A program made the position numbers and the translations under genes. Positions 6,600-32,991 of a stretch of DNA of 37,365 nt are shown here, piece after piece (positions within the stretch are counted from its first letter, which is position 1; each line of letters begins with the position of its first letter). The DNA is taken from contig JASJCL010000045.1 of the NCBI GenBank assembly GCA_030066015.1, positions 1 through 37,365 on the forward strand, given 5' to 3'. The notes below the pieces were generated by a model that saw only the letters and a program-made list of their open reading frames with translations, ran no database searches and was not told the origin of the DNA. The DNA comes from Desulfosarcinaceae bacterium. GTDB lineage: Bacteria; Desulfobacterota; Desulfobacteria; Desulfobacterales; Desulfosarcinaceae.

Positions 6600-8207
6600 T
6601 CAGGCGGTCAGCCGGTTGTCGGCTTCAGCGCCGTATGGCGCATGCTCGGCGAGCCGCTGCGCAACCCAACGGGTGGCGGCATCGATATCCGCCTGCGTGA
6701 TCTCATGCCCGGCGTCGATGGATCGCGTGGTAACACGGGCGCCGGCGGCGACCAAGACCGAGATGAGCCGATCGGTGCTATCCGCCGGAATGACCCGGTC
6801 ACGGCTTCCCCGCAGGACCAGGATCGGCTTGCCCTTCAGGTCTGGTGGCGTCAGATGCTGAAGGGGCAGCATGGGCCGCAGGAGCACCGCCCCAGCGAAC
6901 ACCTCCGGCCGCAGCAAAAGGATCGCCGCCGCCATGTTGGCCCCGTTGGAGTATCCCATCGCCGTGAGACGGTCGGGCTTTCGATCATATTGGCGGATAG
7001 CGGCCGTGATGAAATCCGCCAAAGTGTCCACCCGGCGGGCGATATCGGCCTCGTCGAAGACGTTGTTCGCCAGCCGCGTGAAGAACCGCGCCATGCCGTT
7101 TTCACTTACGTCCCCGCGCGGACTCAAGATCGCGGCCGCTGGCTGGATCGACCTGGCCAGCGGGATGAGGTCGCGCTCATTGCCCCCCGTTCCATGCAGG
7201 GTGACCAGGGTCTCGCCGCCGTCCGAAGTAGTTTGCGGCACCTCATAGAGATGCGTGTAGCTGTACGGCCGCAAGACCGGCAGTTGCTTTTCGATATCCC
7301 TCCGGTGAACTTCCAGAGCGTCTGGTAGCATCAGGGAGGTACCCAGTTGGTGCACCGCTTCGTCGACGCCGAATCCGGGCGGGTCAGTGGCAATTTCAAA
7401 CAACACGCCACCCGGCGTCGGGAAGTATATGGATCGGAAGTACTTTCGATCCCGCTGCTCCGTGACGGCAAAGCCCGCCCGACGCAGGGTCGCTTGCCAG
7501 CCAGCGAGCGTCTCCGCATCAGCGGCGCGAAAGGCGATATGGTGGACGGTACCGCTGCCCGGTCTGGCCGCCGGTGCCGTTGGATCGATCAGAATATCAT
7601 AGTAGGGGCCGGGCGCGTCTAGCCCACCTGCCGAAAAGCGAAAGCGATGCCCCGCATGCTGCTGCAGTTGCATTCCCATGTGATCTGTCAAGAGCGGTCT
7701 GATCTGTTCATCGGATGTGAGCGTAGCGGTGGCGGCATGAAACCCTCCCAGCGCATACGCTGGCTCAACCGGCCCCTTTTCCCAGTGGACCACTGAGGAA
7801 GGACCCGCCACGCCGGTGAGTTCAAGCGGTAACCCGTGGGGATCGCTGAAGCGGATGACAGGTGCACCAAATCTATCCGCCAAATGCGCCTTCACCCCAT
7901 GGGAGCGCAAACGGGCCATCCAAAAATCGATGGCGCCGTCGGGGATGGCAAAGCCGACGGCCGTCACCATGCCAGCGCCCTGCCGACCCCGGGGCAGCCC
8001 TTCCCAGGGAAAGAAGGTCAAAATCGTACCTGGTGTTCCAGCGGCATCCCCGTAATAGAGATGGTAGGTGGTGGGGTCATCGAAATTGACCGTTTGCTTC
8101 ACCAGCCGCAGCCCCAGAATCTGCTCGTAAAAAGCGAGGTTTTCCGCCGCCGCGTTGGTGATGGCCGTAATATGATGAATGCCGTGAATGTCGATATCGG
8201 ATCGCAT
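6600..8207 (-). CDS. Fusion: ring-cleaving dioxygenase-like VOC protein + alpha/beta hydrolase (MhqO-MhqD type)
   Basis: A 535-residue fusion. Residues 1 to about 315 are two vicinal-oxygen-chelate modules of the MhqO/LinE-like type, with metal-ligand candidates His in GIHHITAIT, His in TVHHIAFRA and Glu in GGVLFEIATDPPGF. Residues about 330-535 are a carboxylesterase/phospholipase-type alpha/beta hydrolase with oxyanion region LHGTGGNE, nucleophile GYSNGAN, acid in RGSRDRVIP and His in AGHEIT. In Bacillus the separate proteins MhqO and MhqD belong to a quinone and catechol detoxification regulon, so the fusion probably opens and hydrolyses quinone or hydroquinone-derived compounds in the cytoplasm; this is inferred. 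All catalytic residues appear present. The ATG has GAGGTG at a normal distance. A dyad overlapping the likely promoter suggests repression. Confidence 0.85.
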   Translation of the reverse strand: MRSDIDIHGIHHITAITNAAAENLAFYEQILGLRLVKQTVNFDDPTTYHLYYGDAAGTPGTILTFFPWEGLPRGRQGAGMVTAVGFAIPDGAIDFWMARLRSHGVKAHLADRFGAPVIRFSDPHGLPLELTGVAGPSSVVHWEKGPVEPAYALGGFHAATATLTSDEQIRPLLTDHMGMQLQQHAGHRFRFSAGGLDAPGPYYDILIDPTAPAARPGSGTVHHIAFRAADAETLAGWQATLRRAGFAVTEQRDRKYFRSIYFPTPGGVLFEIATDPPGFGVDEAVHQLGTSLMLPDALEVHRRDIEKQLPVLRPYSYTHLYEVPQTTSDGGETLVTLHGTGGNERDLIPLARSIQPAAAILSPRGDVSENGMARFFTRLANNVFDEADIARRVDTLADFITAAIRQYDRKPDRLTAMGYSNGANMAAAILLLRPEVFAGAVLLRPMLPLQHLTPPDLKGKPILVLRGSRDRVIPADSTDRLISVLVAAGARVTTRSIDAGHEITQADIDAATRWVAQRLAEHAPYGAEADNRLTA

Positions 8208-8316
8208 GGGTTCACCTCAATGATCTTGGTTTTGGTGTTGATTGGCTTCAATATGGGCGCCGCGGGCCAATAGGGCCGCCCCACATCGGAAGGCAATCCA
8301 TCGGTTGCTGAGAAAA

Positions 8317-8348
8317 AGGGTAAGCCCATATATCTTGATGTCAAGACA
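8317..8348 (-). promoter_or_regulatory. Promoter with overlapping dyad operator for the dioxygenase/esterase fusion
   Basis: On the minus strand TTGACA (8339-8344) is followed after 16 bases by TACCCT (8317-8322). The -35 box lies inside the dyad TATCTTGA-TG-TCAAGACA (8331-8348), whose halves pair at 7 of 8 positions. From memory it resembles the MhqR box of Bacillus (TATCTCGA-type halves), which fits the MhqO-MhqD-like product; no MarR gene is in the window. Confidence 0.5.
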
Positions 8349-8658
8349 TTTACAGCGGCCACATCCCCATTTACCCCCTGCAGTGCCCGGAAATGGCACC
8401 GCATGCGCAGCGGATTACTCGGGGGAAAGGGAGGATCGGGGGGGCTGCGTCCTCAAACCCTGTCCACAGGACTGCGCTTCGCGGTGACCCGTCGATTCGG
8501 AGGGGTCTGCACTTGCGGGTGCCCAGAACGGTTGGGATGGGGATGCCGCCTATCCCGGTCCGTCGGAGAACCGGCCCGGACGGCCGGGTGGCGGAAACCG
8601 GGTGATCGCAGTAGCGAAGGGCGATGGGATTGGGGCCACCGCCGATGGACCATCTCGC
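8349..8658. other. Intergenic stretch without supported gene
   Basis: GC-rich sequence between the divergent-side promoter of the fusion gene and the end of the receiver gene. Several short frames exist on both strands but none has a ribosome site or recognisable product. Small GC stems (for example GGGAT/ATCCC near 8540) are not enough to call an RNA. Confidence 0.4.
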
Positions 8659-29504: not shown

Positions 29505-29523
29505 GCGACAACCGGGATTGCGT

Positions 29524-30273
29524 ATGCCCAATGTTTACGACCGCCTGCGTGAACGTGCCCGCGCCATCATCGCCACCTGCGAAGCTCCTGCCTTCTACAC
29601 CGATTGCCGCGCCGCCTGCACCGCTTCGCGGCAGATGTTCGACACCGATCCCATTATCTCCCGCCTAAAGGCCTATATTCACCGGCACGTGGATGAGGAC
29701 TTCGGTCACGGGTGGCAACACCTCACCAAAGTCACCTTGGACGCGGGGGCGCTGGTTCACATTGAGGGGAAAAATGCGGGCTACCATCCCGCCTATCTGG
29801 AACGGCGGATGCTGCTGGCGCAATGCGCCGGCCTGTTGCACGACTTCAAGCGCAAGGAGAAAGAGCACGCCCGTGCAGGCGAGCGACACGCCCGCGATTT
29901 GCTCCAGGCCTACCCCTTTCAGCGCATGGAGATCGAGGATGTCAGCCTGGCCATTCGCAATCACGAGGCCTTCAAGACACCGGTACCGGCCGCTTCGGCA
30001 TGCGGATCACTGCTCTCCGACTGCCTCTACGACGCAGACAAGTTCCGCTGGGGGCCCGACAACTTCGCCGACACCGTCTGGGAGATGGTAGCCTACCATC
30101 AGCCCAGCCTGGAGCAGTTTGTGACCCGCTATCCCAAGGGAATGGCCGGCATCGAGAGGATCAAGACCACCTTTCGAACCCATACGGGGCGTCACTACGG
30201 ACCCCAGTTCATCGACCTGGGGCTCACTATCGGGCGAGAGCTGCTGGCGATTATTGAGACCGAGTACCTTTGA
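29524..30273 (+). CDS. HD-domain phosphohydrolase-like protein
   Basis: A 249-residue soluble protein with an HD metal-binding pattern: His in GHGWQHLTKV (about 62-66), the HD pair in GLLHDFKRKEKEHARAGERHA (about 103-120), a further His in RNHEAF and the distal Asp in LYDADKFRW. HD proteins hydrolyse phosphomonoesters, nucleotides or cyclic dinucleotides; the substrate is unknown here. The ATG at 29524 has GGGA at 6 bases; TTG at 29518 is the alternative. The next gene begins 42 bases on with its own strong ribosome site, so co-transcription with the selenoprotein gene is likely. Confidence 0.8.
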   Translation: MPNVYDRLRERARAIIATCEAPAFYTDCRAACTASRQMFDTDPIISRLKAYIHRHVDEDFGHGWQHLTKVTLDAGALVHIEGKNAGYHPAYLERRMLLAQCAGLLHDFKRKEKEHARAGERHARDLLQAYPFQRMEIEDVSLAIRNHEAFKTPVPAASACGSLLSDCLYDADKFRWGPDNFADTVWEMVAYHQPSLEQFVTRYPKGMAGIERIKTTFRTHTGRHYGPQFIDLGLTIGRELLAIIETEYL

Positions 30274-30315
30274 GGCGCCACGGGATCGGCGTCGCCCCCA
30301 ATCAGGAGGAGTCCA

Positions 30316-31146
30316 ATGCGTTGGAGACAATTTTTCACACCGGTCAGTTCGGTGGATGCCGCGGCCGGCAAACAATTGATCGATGCCGCCGCCAGCGACG
30401 GCATCACCATCCTGGACGTGCGTCAGCCCAGCGAATACAAGGCCGGACATCTACCCGGTGCGCGCCTGATTCCCCTGCCCGAACTGAGCGACCGTCTCGA
30501 TGAATTGGACAGCGCGAGTCCCATACTGGTCTACTGAGCGATTGGGGGGCGCAGCCGGGTGGCTGCCCAGTTGCTGGCCGGAAAGGGCTTCTCCAAGGTC
30601 TACAACCTCTCCGGCGGCATCAACGCCTGGCAAAGCGAGGTGGCCGTGGGGGATCAGACCGAGGGACTGGCGCTCTTCAGCGGGGAGGAATCTGTGGAGG
30701 CGGCCCTCATGGTGGCCTACGGCCTCGAAGTGGGCCTGCGCGATTTCTATCTCTCCATGACGCGCAAGCCCTATGATGCACCGGTGCGGGCACTTTTCAC
30801 GGAACTCGCCGAGATTGAAATCAAGCACCAGGAGCAATTGCTGGCCGCCTATGCCGACATCACCGGTAAATCCGCGGATCGAAAACGCTTTGACGCTGCC
30901 GTGACGGGCCATGTCGAAGGCGGTCTCACCACGGAGGAATTCCTGGCGCGCTTCTCCAGCGACATCTCCTCCACCATCGACGTCCTCAGCATGGCCATGG
31001 CCATTGAAGCCCAGGCGCTCGATCTCTACCAGCGCGCCGCCGACACCGCTGCCTCCGCCGACAACAAAGCGGTGTTCCGGCAGATCGCCAATGAAGAGAA
31101 AGCCCATCTGCGACGCTTGGGAGATCTCATGGATGCCCAGGTCTAA
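30316..31146 (+). CDS. Selenoprotein: rhodanese-ferritin-like fusion, Sec74 at the catalytic position
   Basis: A 276-residue product if the in-frame TGA at 30535-30537 is read as selenocysteine. Residues 1-110 are a rhodanese domain: ILDVRQPSEYKAGHLPGARLIPL before and, around the TGA, PILVY-U-AIGGRSRVAA, where relatives have catalytic Cys in VYC-x2-GGRS. The frame continues without a break to YNLSGGINAW. Residues about 120-276 are a ferritin/rubrerythrin-like four-helix bundle with diiron ligand candidates E138, E168xxH171, E231 and E261xxH264. A hairpin like a bacterial SECIS follows the TGA at 30548-30568. The rhodanese would transfer sulfur or selenium, the bundle reduce peroxide or oxygen. 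AGGAGG precedes the ATG. A pseudogene with a premature stop is the alternative but conservation after the TGA is intact. Confidence 0.85.
30548..30568 (+). promoter_or_regulatory. Candidate bacterial SECIS element of the rhodanese gene
   Basis: Directly after the TGA, GCAGCC (30551-30556) pairs with GGCTGC (30561-30566) around a GGGT loop, with GG/CC continuing below a bulged C. The loop begins 19 nt after the TGA, as in the E. coli fdhF element (18 nt to the GGUC loop, from memory). Confidence 0.6.
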
Positions 31147-31169: not shown

Positions 31170-32285
31170 ATGGGAAAGCACCTCGTCCTTATCGGCGGCG
31201 GTCACGCCCACATGGTGACCCTGGCGCACATGAACGAGATCGTCGCCCAAGGCCACCGGGTCACCGTTGTAGGGCCATCGGCGCACCACTATTACTCCGG
31301 CATGGGCCCCGGTATGCTGGGTGGCACCTATACCCCCGACGAGATCCGCTTCGCCACCCAACATGTGGTTGAAAAACAGGGTGGTCAATTCATCTGCGAC
31401 AGCGTCACGGTCATCGACGCCGCCAACCGCCGGCTTGAGTTGGCCGAGGGCGACGCTCTGACCTACGATGTGCTGTCCGTCAATGCGGGCAGTTACGTCC
31501 CACGAAATCTGGTAGCCGAGGACACGGAGCGAATCGTCTCGGTCAAACCCATCGAAAAGCTCATGGACGCCCGACAGGCGTTACGGCTCGCTTTGAAGAC
31601 CCGATCTGAAAAGATCGTCATCGTGGGAGGGGGGCCCTCGGCGGCAGAGATCGGCGGCAACATCTGGCAGCTGGCCCAGGAAGAGGGCCTTCACACGCCG
31701 CATATCACCATCTTGGCTGGCAATCGCTTCATGGCCGACTTTCCCGAAGCGATCCGTCGACGGGCGATGAACACCCTGACCAGGAGAGGGATCTTGGTCC
31801 TGGAGAGCGGATATGCCAAGATCATCCGGGCAGACGGCGTGACCCTCGCTGACGGCGGTCATCACCCCGCTGACAGAGTGTTTTTGGCGCTGGGCGTCCG
31901 CCCGTCAGACCTTTTCGCGGCTTCCAACCTGCCCATCGGGCCGGACGGAGGCCTGCGGGTCAATGCCTACCTGCAATGCACCGAACACCCCGAGATCTTC
32001 GGTGGCGGGGACTGCATCCACTACACCCCCAGCCCCCTGGACAAAGTGGGCGTCTTCGCCGTCCGCCAAAACCCCATCCTTTTCCAAAACCTCCTTGCCA
32101 GCCTCAACAACGACTCCCTGACACCCTTCGATCCAGGCGGCAGCTACCTCTTGATTTTCAATATGGGCGGCGGGATCGGCATCCTCCACAAAGCCGGTAT
32201 TACCCTGGGCGGCCGACTGGCCTTCCACTTCAAAGATTGGATTGACCGGCGCTTCATGCGCCGATTCCAGGCGATAGAACACTAG
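31170..32285 (+). CDS. FAD/NAD-dependent oxidoreductase, NDH-2-like, of the SelD-associated type
   Basis: A 371-residue flavoprotein of the pyridine nucleotide-disulfide family. The N-terminal FAD motif reads LIGGGHAHMV, the GGGHAH variant seen in NADH dehydrogenase-like proteins and in the domain fused to selenophosphate synthetase SelD in some organisms, followed by YSGMGPGMLGG. A second Rossmann motif for NAD(P), IVIVGGGPSAAEIGG, is at about 149-163, and the end has IFGGGDCIHY with the FAD-binding Asp. No CxxC redox pair is present, so it is not a disulfide reductase; electrons probably go to quinone or another acceptor. AAGGAGGG precedes the ATG; it begins 23 bases after the Sec-rhodanese gene. 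Confidence 0.85.
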   Translation: MGKHLVLIGGGHAHMVTLAHMNEIVAQGHRVTVVGPSAHHYYSGMGPGMLGGTYTPDEIRFATQHVVEKQGGQFICDSVTVIDAANRRLELAEGDALTYDVLSVNAGSYVPRNLVAEDTERIVSVKPIEKLMDARQALRLALKTRSEKIVIVGGGPSAAEIGGNIWQLAQEEGLHTPHITILAGNRFMADFPEAIRRRAMNTLTRRGILVLESGYAKIIRADGVTLADGGHHPADRVFLALGVRPSDLFAASNLPIGPDGGLRVNAYLQCTEHPEIFGGGDCIHYTPSPLDKVGVFAVRQNPILFQNLLASLNNDSLTPFDPGGSYLLIFNMGGGIGILHKAGITLGGRLAFHFKDWIDRRFMRRFQAIEH

Positions 32286-32295
32286 AAAGAGCGCC

Positions 32296-32991
32296 ATGCA
32301 CAGCGATAATACCACCGCAACAGACCACTCGCCCCAGCAGATTGTGGCCTTTCTGCAGGGCGATCGCGCCGCCGCCAAAGTCGCCGGCATTCGACGATAT
32401 GGCGGCCGGGCGTTCCATCTGGAGGCCATCTCCATCGAAGCGCATCTGCCGGCCGTCATCGATGACGGCAGGGCCTACCTTCCGGGCCGTTTGGCGGCCG
32501 ACCTGGTCCTGGACTTCCTGAGCCACCCGGACCTTTCTCACGATCTGGCCGCCCTGTGCGCCGCCCAGAAAATCCCCATCGTGGCGTCCGGCAAAAAGGC
32601 CGCTCTGCCATCTGTCATGACCACCCCCACATGATGTGCGCTGGCCGGGCCGGTCGGTCTGGGCAGATATGGGGAGCGCTTCGGTCAGCCAAGGCTGGAG
32701 GTCACCCTTACCGGCAGCCGCATCGGCGCCATCACGGTCCGAAGGGGCGCGCCCTGCGGCGCCACCTGGGCCTTGCCGCAGCGGTTGGCGGGCACGCCGG
32801 TGGAATCCGCATTGGCCAGGATCGGCCTGGAGGCGCAGTTCTACTGCGTGGCCGATCCCGCCGGGTGGGATCCCATATCCGGCCGCAGCCCCGTTCATCT
32901 TGCCGGTGAGCTGCACCGTGCGGCGCTGGCTCGGGCGATCGCCCGCTGCAGCAATGGCGCACATGAAAAAGATCGGGTGCAGCCGCCTTGA
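32296..32991 (+). CDS. Selenoprotein: DUF166/COG1810-like protein with Sec113-Cys114
   Basis: A 231-residue protein if the TGA at 32632-32634 is read as selenocysteine. Before it: LEAISIEAHLPAVIDDG, LAADLVLDFLSHPDLSHDL (DUF166-like hydrophobic strand and HPDL motif). After it the frame continues with U-CALAGPVGLGRYGERFG, VRRGAPCGATWALPQRL and YCVADPAGWDP, the later DUF166 motifs, including the APCGATW Cys (C154). The U-C pair would replace a Cys-Cys pair of relatives (redox or metal/Se-binding). A hairpin with GGTC loop lies 17 nt after the TGA. A second Cys group at the end (YC, RCSN) may bind metal. Function of the family is unknown. The start lies 10 bases after the flavoprotein stop. Confidence 0.8.
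32641..32666 (+). promoter_or_regulatory. Candidate bacterial SECIS element of the DUF166-like gene
   Basis: CTG-G-CCGGGCC pairs with GGTCTGG-G-CAG around a GGTC loop (32652-32655): a 7-bp upper stem with two G-U pairs, a G-G mismatch and a 3-bp lower stem. The loop begins 17 nt after the TGA, and its sequence equals the key loop of the E. coli fdhF element. Confidence 0.7.

Follow-up and report, generated by a model that had tools for sequence, protein, structure and literature searches.

The window analysed here, by which we mean the whole stretch of 37,365 nucleotides (positions 1 to 37,365, forward strand, of contig JASJCL010000045.1 in GenBank assembly GCA_030066015.1), comes from a member of the Desulfosarcinaceae, a sulfate-reducer-type bacterium. 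It carries a gene in which a rhodanese domain and a ferritin-like four-helix bundle are joined in one frame across an internal TGA codon, and a flavoprotein gene and a second gene with an in-frame TGA lie downstream (Table 1). Direct translation of the fusion gene begins at an ATG and ends at the TAA at 31144-31146, and the AGGAGG 5' of the gene is what we take to be a ribosome-binding-like site. When the TGA is read through it falls in the context VY-U-AIGGRSR and is followed by a further 202 residues, as the initial annotation had claimed for a TGA within a rhodanese. That annotation had also expected ordinary gene calling to return two fragments, and mechanical ORF listing without read-through does so, giving ORFs of 73 aa (30316-30537) and 195 aa (30559-31146), the latter with a GTG start.

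Table 1. Features of the rhodanese-ferritin locus, in positions of the window
Feature	Position	Strand	Remarks and basis
Ribosome-binding-like site (presumed), AGGAGG, 5' of the fusion gene	30304..30309	+	Read from sequence
Rhodanese-ferritin fusion gene, almost certainly a selenoprotein gene	30316..31146	+	276 residues, predicted Sec at 74; sequence, translation, Pfam, homologues
Rhodanese domain, residues 20-107, PF00581	30373..30636	+	Pfam; fold match to solved rhodaneses
In-frame TGA at the active-site position of the rhodanese, predicted selenocysteine codon	30535..30537	+	Codon column of 150 genes
SECIS-like hairpin, six base pairs, loop GGGT (30557-30560)	30551..30566	+	Core pairs, codon-83 third-base entropy
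Rubrerythrin/ferritin-like four-helix bundle, residues 131-271, PF02915	30706..31128	+	Pfam, ligand conservation, model
FAD/NAD(P) oxidoreductase, conserved neighbour	31170..32285	+	Nearest model TIGR03169, below cut-off
DUF166 selenoprotein DfsP (NF041372), own in-frame TGA at 32632-32634	32296..32991	+	NCBIfam match

Both domains are recognized in frame, PF00581 with 79 bits (cut-off 22.2) and PF02915 with 42.6 bits (cut-off 22.8), and PF00581 is matched at E <= 0.001 by all 40 members of A1. The fusion protein matches 26 NCBIfam models, each of the 25 listed with a score below its cut-off, and PADLOC gave no match. The catalytic Cys of a rhodanese lies in a short loop and is followed by an Arg; here position 74 is Sec, or Cys in relatives, and R79 is invariant. 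In an alignment of 150 distinct genes, D34-V35-R36-Q37, Y73, Sec/Cys74, G77, R79 and S80 show no variation at a precision of two decimals. The bundle contains six likely diiron ligands, E138, E168, H171, E231, E261 and H264, assigned by the E/ExxH/E/ExxH pattern of such proteins. E138 and E168 are present in all 150 genes and H171 in 149 of them, and E231, E261 and H264 are present in each of the 149 rows that reach them. To judge from sequence and model, this is a bundle with a full set of putative diiron ligands, and the proposal that family motifs continue beyond the TGA into a complete ferritin-like bundle holds well. Classical rubrerythrins carry a rubredoxin-like Fe(Cys)4 domain. In the 150-gene alignment no column other than that of residue 74 exceeds 20% Cys/Sec, so the chain has neither a rubredoxin-type centre nor a conserved resolving Cys.

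The AlphaFold2 model, made with 40 aligned sequences (mean pLDDT 89.6), shows an alpha/beta part resembling a rhodanese, together with four long helices. In structural alignments, solved rhodaneses match residues ~6-112 with Z ~13-19, and the ferritin-like structures 2oh3 and 7dl5 match residues ~124-276 with Z of 13.6 and 13.3, a range in which helical bundles can match by shared arrangement alone. None of the solved structures among the matches listed spans both domains.

A first contig scan gave 11 relatives, ten of which are full length, with identities of 48-59%, including sequences from Desulfospira joergensenii, Desulfobacula, Desulfosarcina and the Olavius algarvensis Delta 3 symbiont. 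The fusion was sought in the genomes of 60 relatives and, more widely, across 389 genomes of the class, of which 145, the one that contains the window included, have a match at E <= 1e-50; the suggestion that a ferritin-like bundle is an uncommon partner for a rhodanese thus does not apply within this class. A plasmid collection yielded 612 records, none with 80% of the query covered at a single place. The 176 loci were reduced to 150 distinct genes (that of the window and 149 relatives), 145 of them near full length and five truncated. A locus with the rhodanese only (L034) and ten distant Cys paralogues (L055-L064) were excluded before counting, and a fragment (G359:C344) and a broken copy (G025:C80) also lie outside this set. 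The broken copy (7707-8527 on its contig) consists of two overlapping pieces, one with a TAG and one with a TGA, and is decayed or misassembled. The genome that contains the window also encodes a distant rhodanese-ferritin paralogue of 37% identity with no internal stop (C31:73327-74067), and similar distant proteins with Cys at the site, the excluded L055-L064, are found in other relatives.

Codon 74 is TGA in 91 of the 150 genes, TGC in 36 and TGT in 23, and nothing else. Cys homologues aligned at this residue, which the initial annotation had proposed looking for, therefore make up 59 of the 150. The ORF cutting behind this count is blind to TAA or TAG at site 74, and the stop column of the class-wide search covers both; among the matches listed there, the fusion has either no stop or a single internal TGA. 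Interrupting stops had likewise been named as something to look for, and over the aligned stretch the 150 genes are free of TAA and TAG and have no in-frame TGA beyond that at site 74, the TAG noted above being in the excluded G025:C80. Protein identity between the window gene and the 86 other Sec genes compared is 55.7% before residue 74 and 50.6% after it, and 3' of the TGA the codon-position identities with other TGA genes are 0.60/0.70/0.37; the similar identity on the two sides, together with this codon-position pattern, indicates that the part after the TGA evolves as coding sequence. At least 16 changes between Sec and Cys are needed on the best tree of a quick protein phylogeny, seven of them forced by starred branches, although the details of this tree are uncertain because several long branches are joined.

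The bacterial SECIS element is described in PMC1088965 as a hairpin just downstream of the codon with a small apical loop containing G. In the window, 30551-30556 pair with 30561-30566 just 3' of the TGA, enclosing the GGGT loop; the core begins at nucleotide 14 after the TGA and the first loop base lies 20 nucleotides after it. A five-pair core is complete in 83 of the 91 TGA genes versus 10 of the 59 Cys genes (Fisher p 4.5e-21, a value inflated by relatedness), and the eight TGA genes that lack it presumably rely on a different or a weaker hairpin. Fold energy over short spans covering the hairpin itself is lower in the TGA genes (p 4e-11 and 4e-15), and over two long spans it does not distinguish TGA from Cys genes (p 0.24 and 0.12). 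With an energy-only hairpin score, sets of 15 TGA and 15 Cys genes could not be told apart (p 0.56 and 0.31), plain folding of the window hairpin gave z of -0.5 to -2.0, which is weak evidence by itself, and an Rfam scan of the window returned one tRNA and nothing else.

The codon for Ala83, which lies in the stem, is GCT in 84 of the 91 TGA genes versus 12 of the 59 Cys genes, while GCT accounts for 15.7% of the other Ala codons in the former and 11.2% in the latter. The third base of codon 83 has an entropy of 0.47 bits in the TGA genes, the lowest of 86 fourfold codons (median 1.64), and of 1.74 bits in the Cys genes; since the contrast with other codons is made within the same genes, it is not easily attributed to relatedness. 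GCT is the majority codon in 20 of 25 family labels with TGA genes versus two of 21 with Cys genes, one label pooling the family-less loci, and a compensatory change from C-G to A-T at one stem pair is seen in five TGA genes from two family codes. In an independent-branch test on seven starred pairs, 3.4 (hairpin) or 4.3 (GCT) lay in the expected direction and 1.1 in the opposite one, a difference that is not significant with so few pairs. The SECIS-like hairpin that had been noted at the right distance from the TGA thus gains support from synonymous constraint and a compensatory change.

The genome to which the window belongs (5.73 Mb in 155 contigs) has complete selenocysteine machinery, with all four of the genes that had been suggested as a check: selA (607.8 bits), selB (363.1 bits) and selD (370.3 bits) exceed their curated cut-offs, and tRNA-Sec scores 73.4 bits against a gathering score of 47. 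The selD gene (L010; C94:14023-14946) contains one in-frame TGA itself, and the same is true of the best selD matches listed for the class. Because SelD is already present in 332 of the 389 genomes of the class, its co-occurrence with the fusion gene across these genomes is uninformative.

A codon 74 that is only ever TGA or Cys, the constraint on the hairpin and the presence of Sec machinery together provide strong comparative evidence that the fusion gene is almost certainly a selenoprotein gene. We are highly confident that it specifies a single 276-residue selenoprotein, in which a single rhodanese domain, with a predicted Sec instead of its catalytic Cys, precedes a C-terminal ferritin-like bundle with diiron ligands; this confidence covers the selenoprotein and its domains, apart from the working model set out below, and the insertion of selenocysteine itself we infer from comparative sequence data. 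One alternative treats the TGA as a genuine stop, after which the protein either restarts at GTG 30559 as a second gene or is the remnant of a decayed one. It can draw on the existence of the ORF at 30559-31146, but the GTG start of that ORF (residue 82) falls, in the model, within the helix next to the rhodanese active site on its C-terminal side. Y73, G77, R79, S80 and R81, which flank the TGA on both sides, are conserved at 97% or more, and with TGA or Cys in 150 of 150 genes, no other stop, and a hairpin under synonymous constraint, this alternative is already contradicted in both its versions and we rejected it as highly improbable. An in-frame TGA with conserved sequence beyond it would also be compatible with a lineage-specific reassignment of UGA, to Trp or some other amino acid, but relatives in the 150-gene set carry Cys at the site and never Trp, none of these genes has a second in-frame TGA in the aligned stretch, and the ORF just upstream terminates at a TGA (30271-30273). 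We rejected this reading too and consider it barely conceivable.

The flavoprotein gene lies directly downstream of the fusion on the same strand in 106 of the 147 loci with room to see it; the 41 fusion genes beside which it was not found include that of L024, the relative of highest identity in the first contig scan (59%). The best of all models for the flavoprotein is TIGR03169 (Nterm_to_SelD), matched with 254 bits over nearly the full length, below the cut-off of 310, and among solved chains those closest to it in sequence belong to NADH-dehydrogenase-like proteins and sulfide-quinone reductases. C282 is its one conserved Cys, found in all 102 distinct sequences. In one locus (L084) the flavoprotein is upstream rather than downstream, at -1326 from the fusion gene, and in four others (L026, L027, L028 and L030) a third same-strand gene follows it, ~2.0 kb from the start of the fusion; in L028, the only one of these scanned, the product of this gene combines a VTT membrane domain with a second pyridine-nucleotide-disulfide oxidoreductase. 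L027 is the locus of Desulfospira joergensenii DSM 10085; its fusion gene is of the TGA form, and its flavoprotein gene begins 843 nt from the start of the fusion gene.

The DfsP gene is a member of NF041372, scoring 282.8 bits (cut-off 200) when its TGA is read through, and is thus the second selenoprotein gene in the window. The TGA, which is followed by TGC, is 2.1 kb from that of the fusion, and in 20 relatives of DfsP the site is TGA in nine and Cys in eleven. We considered DfsP as a conserved third partner and rejected it, as there is no DfsP match in 30 other fusion loci (with flanks of varying length), nor a flavoprotein or fusion match within flanks of ~1.5 kb around the DfsP loci of the 20 relatives. 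The ORF directly upstream of the fusion (29518-30273) has no Pfam match and a weak, partial match to the DVU_1551 family (20.5 bits, cut-off 315), and no homologue of it was matched in the 30 other loci.

As a working model, UGA 74 would be read as selenocysteine with the SelA, SelB, SelD and tRNA-Sec of the genome and the hairpin just downstream, and Sec74 may take up sulfane sulfur as a selenosulfide, as the rhodanese family would suggest. Rubrerythrins reduce peroxide or oxygen at their bundle, and by analogy the diiron bundle would spend electrons on these oxidants, the electrons being supplied from NAD(P)H by the flavoprotein of the adjacent gene. This donor role is proposed because the genes are linked and because NADH-dependent persulfide reductases combining rhodanese and FAD domains (3nta, 3icr, 6pfz) offer an analogy, and electron flow between the parts is a prediction on the same grounds. 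Persulfide handling would in this way be coupled to oxidant removal in an anaerobe. We put forward this combination of a selenium-based sulfane-sulfur carrier with a diiron oxidant-reducing bundle fed by a flavoprotein only tentatively, as a possibility well short of an even chance, and the 41 loci with no adjoining flavoprotein count against it. That the two genes form a selenium-sulfur-iron redox module, undescribed as such, in which the Sec74 selenosulfide relays electrons or sulfur between NAD(P)H and the diiron site, is possible but rather doubtful.

Other roles can be imagined for the same parts. The Sec rhodanese and the flavoprotein might supply SelD with reduced selenium (perselenide), by making or carrying it, as is suggested by the linkage of the two genes and by the resemblance of the flavoprotein to TIGR03169, a domain that in other bacteria is fused N-terminal to SelD; the score for that model is nevertheless below its cut-off, most genomes with SelD lack the fusion at the thresholds used (332 versus 145 of 389), and the ferritin bundle is left without a role, so that selenium delivery seems to us quite improbable. 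A plain sulfurtransferase joined to an iron-storing or ferroxidase bundle could instead serve iron-sulfur supply with no peroxide chemistry. Both domains exceed their Pfam cut-offs, and distant Cys rhodanese-ferritin proteins of ~30-37% identity exist in many relatives. A Fur-family regulator, which is compatible with both iron and peroxide control, is encoded on the same strand 2.1-6.4 kb downstream of the fusion in four of 30 loci (L067, L069, L071 and L077, of which L071 was scanned). Pfam scans of representatives of eight of the 13 recurring neighbour clusters, on the other hand, found no encapsulin shell or Fe-S assembly protein, and the repeated use of Sec suggests redox turnover; we regard iron-sulfur supply as unlikely.

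Ordinary reading of the stop codon splits the gene in two and so conceals a protein that 145 of 389 genomes of the class encode. With at least seven supported Sec-Cys switches and a matching difference in the hairpin, the family is a good natural system in which to ask what advantage selenium gives a sulfurtransferase. Should the diiron half and the flavoprotein prove to cooperate with the Sec rhodanese, selenium, sulfur and iron chemistry would be tied together in one small system.

A rhodanese with Sec is not new as such. A family of rhodanese-related selenoproteins appears in a Sargasso Sea survey of 2005 (PMC1088965), PMC8318568 reports Sec-containing rhodanese-like and DUF166 proteins in a sediment Deltaproteobacteria-bbl genome, and a 2026 review gives five predicted Sec rhodanese-like forms (1-5), of which forms 2 and 4 have the motif UxxG (PMC13188914). 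These forms share with the present protein a Sec in a rhodanese-like domain, and the UxxG of forms 2 and 4 corresponds to U-A-I-G here. The main text of the review differs in containing neither 'ferritin' nor 'rubrerythrin', and the fusion may already sit under its 'rhodanese form 2' (UxxG, MBM9537886.1). The terms rhodanese, ferritin, rubrerythrin and sulfurtransferase are absent from the main text of PMC12013277, as are ferritin and rubrerythrin from the main texts of PMC9312934 and PMC8318568, and the main texts of open-licence papers, a body of literature outside which some key papers lie, gave none naming a rhodanese-ferritin fusion or a flavin partner. Two NCBIfam families also describe rhodanese-related (seleno)proteins, but the fusion protein is a member of neither, scoring 34 bits against a cut-off of 115 for NF041203 (rhodanese_LYCAU) and 19 bits against 805 for NF045694 (TsoB, rhodanese/DsbD fusion-like).

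The C-terminal half resembles the rubrerythrin or ferritin-like structures 2oh3, 1vjx and 2fzf in its four-helix bundle and E/ExxH/E/ExxH ligands, and differs from classical rubrerythrin in having no rubredoxin-like Cys4 centre. The match to 2oh3 has an rmsd of 3.9 over 137 aligned positions, such as bundle arrangement alone can give, and 1vjx and 2fzf are matched in sequence at E of 4e-5 and 2.5e-5. The rhodanese part aligns with that of the persulfide dioxygenase-rhodanese fusion BpPRF (5ve3-5ve5) with Z ~15.7-15.9. BpPRF is likewise a rhodanese fused to an iron-dependent domain, which is presumably a dioxygenase of metallo-hydrolase fold, unlike the ferritin-like bundle described here. The NADH-dependent persulfide reductases of the CoADR-RHD type (rhodanese Z 14-17) come close in combining a rhodanese with an FAD/NAD oxidoreductase. 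They do so in one chain with a flavoprotein of the coenzyme A-disulfide-reductase type, whereas in the present system the two parts are encoded by separate genes, the flavoprotein has its best solved matches in the NADH-dehydrogenase-like YjlD and relatives (9pxk, 4nwz), and a diiron bundle has been added to the rhodanese.
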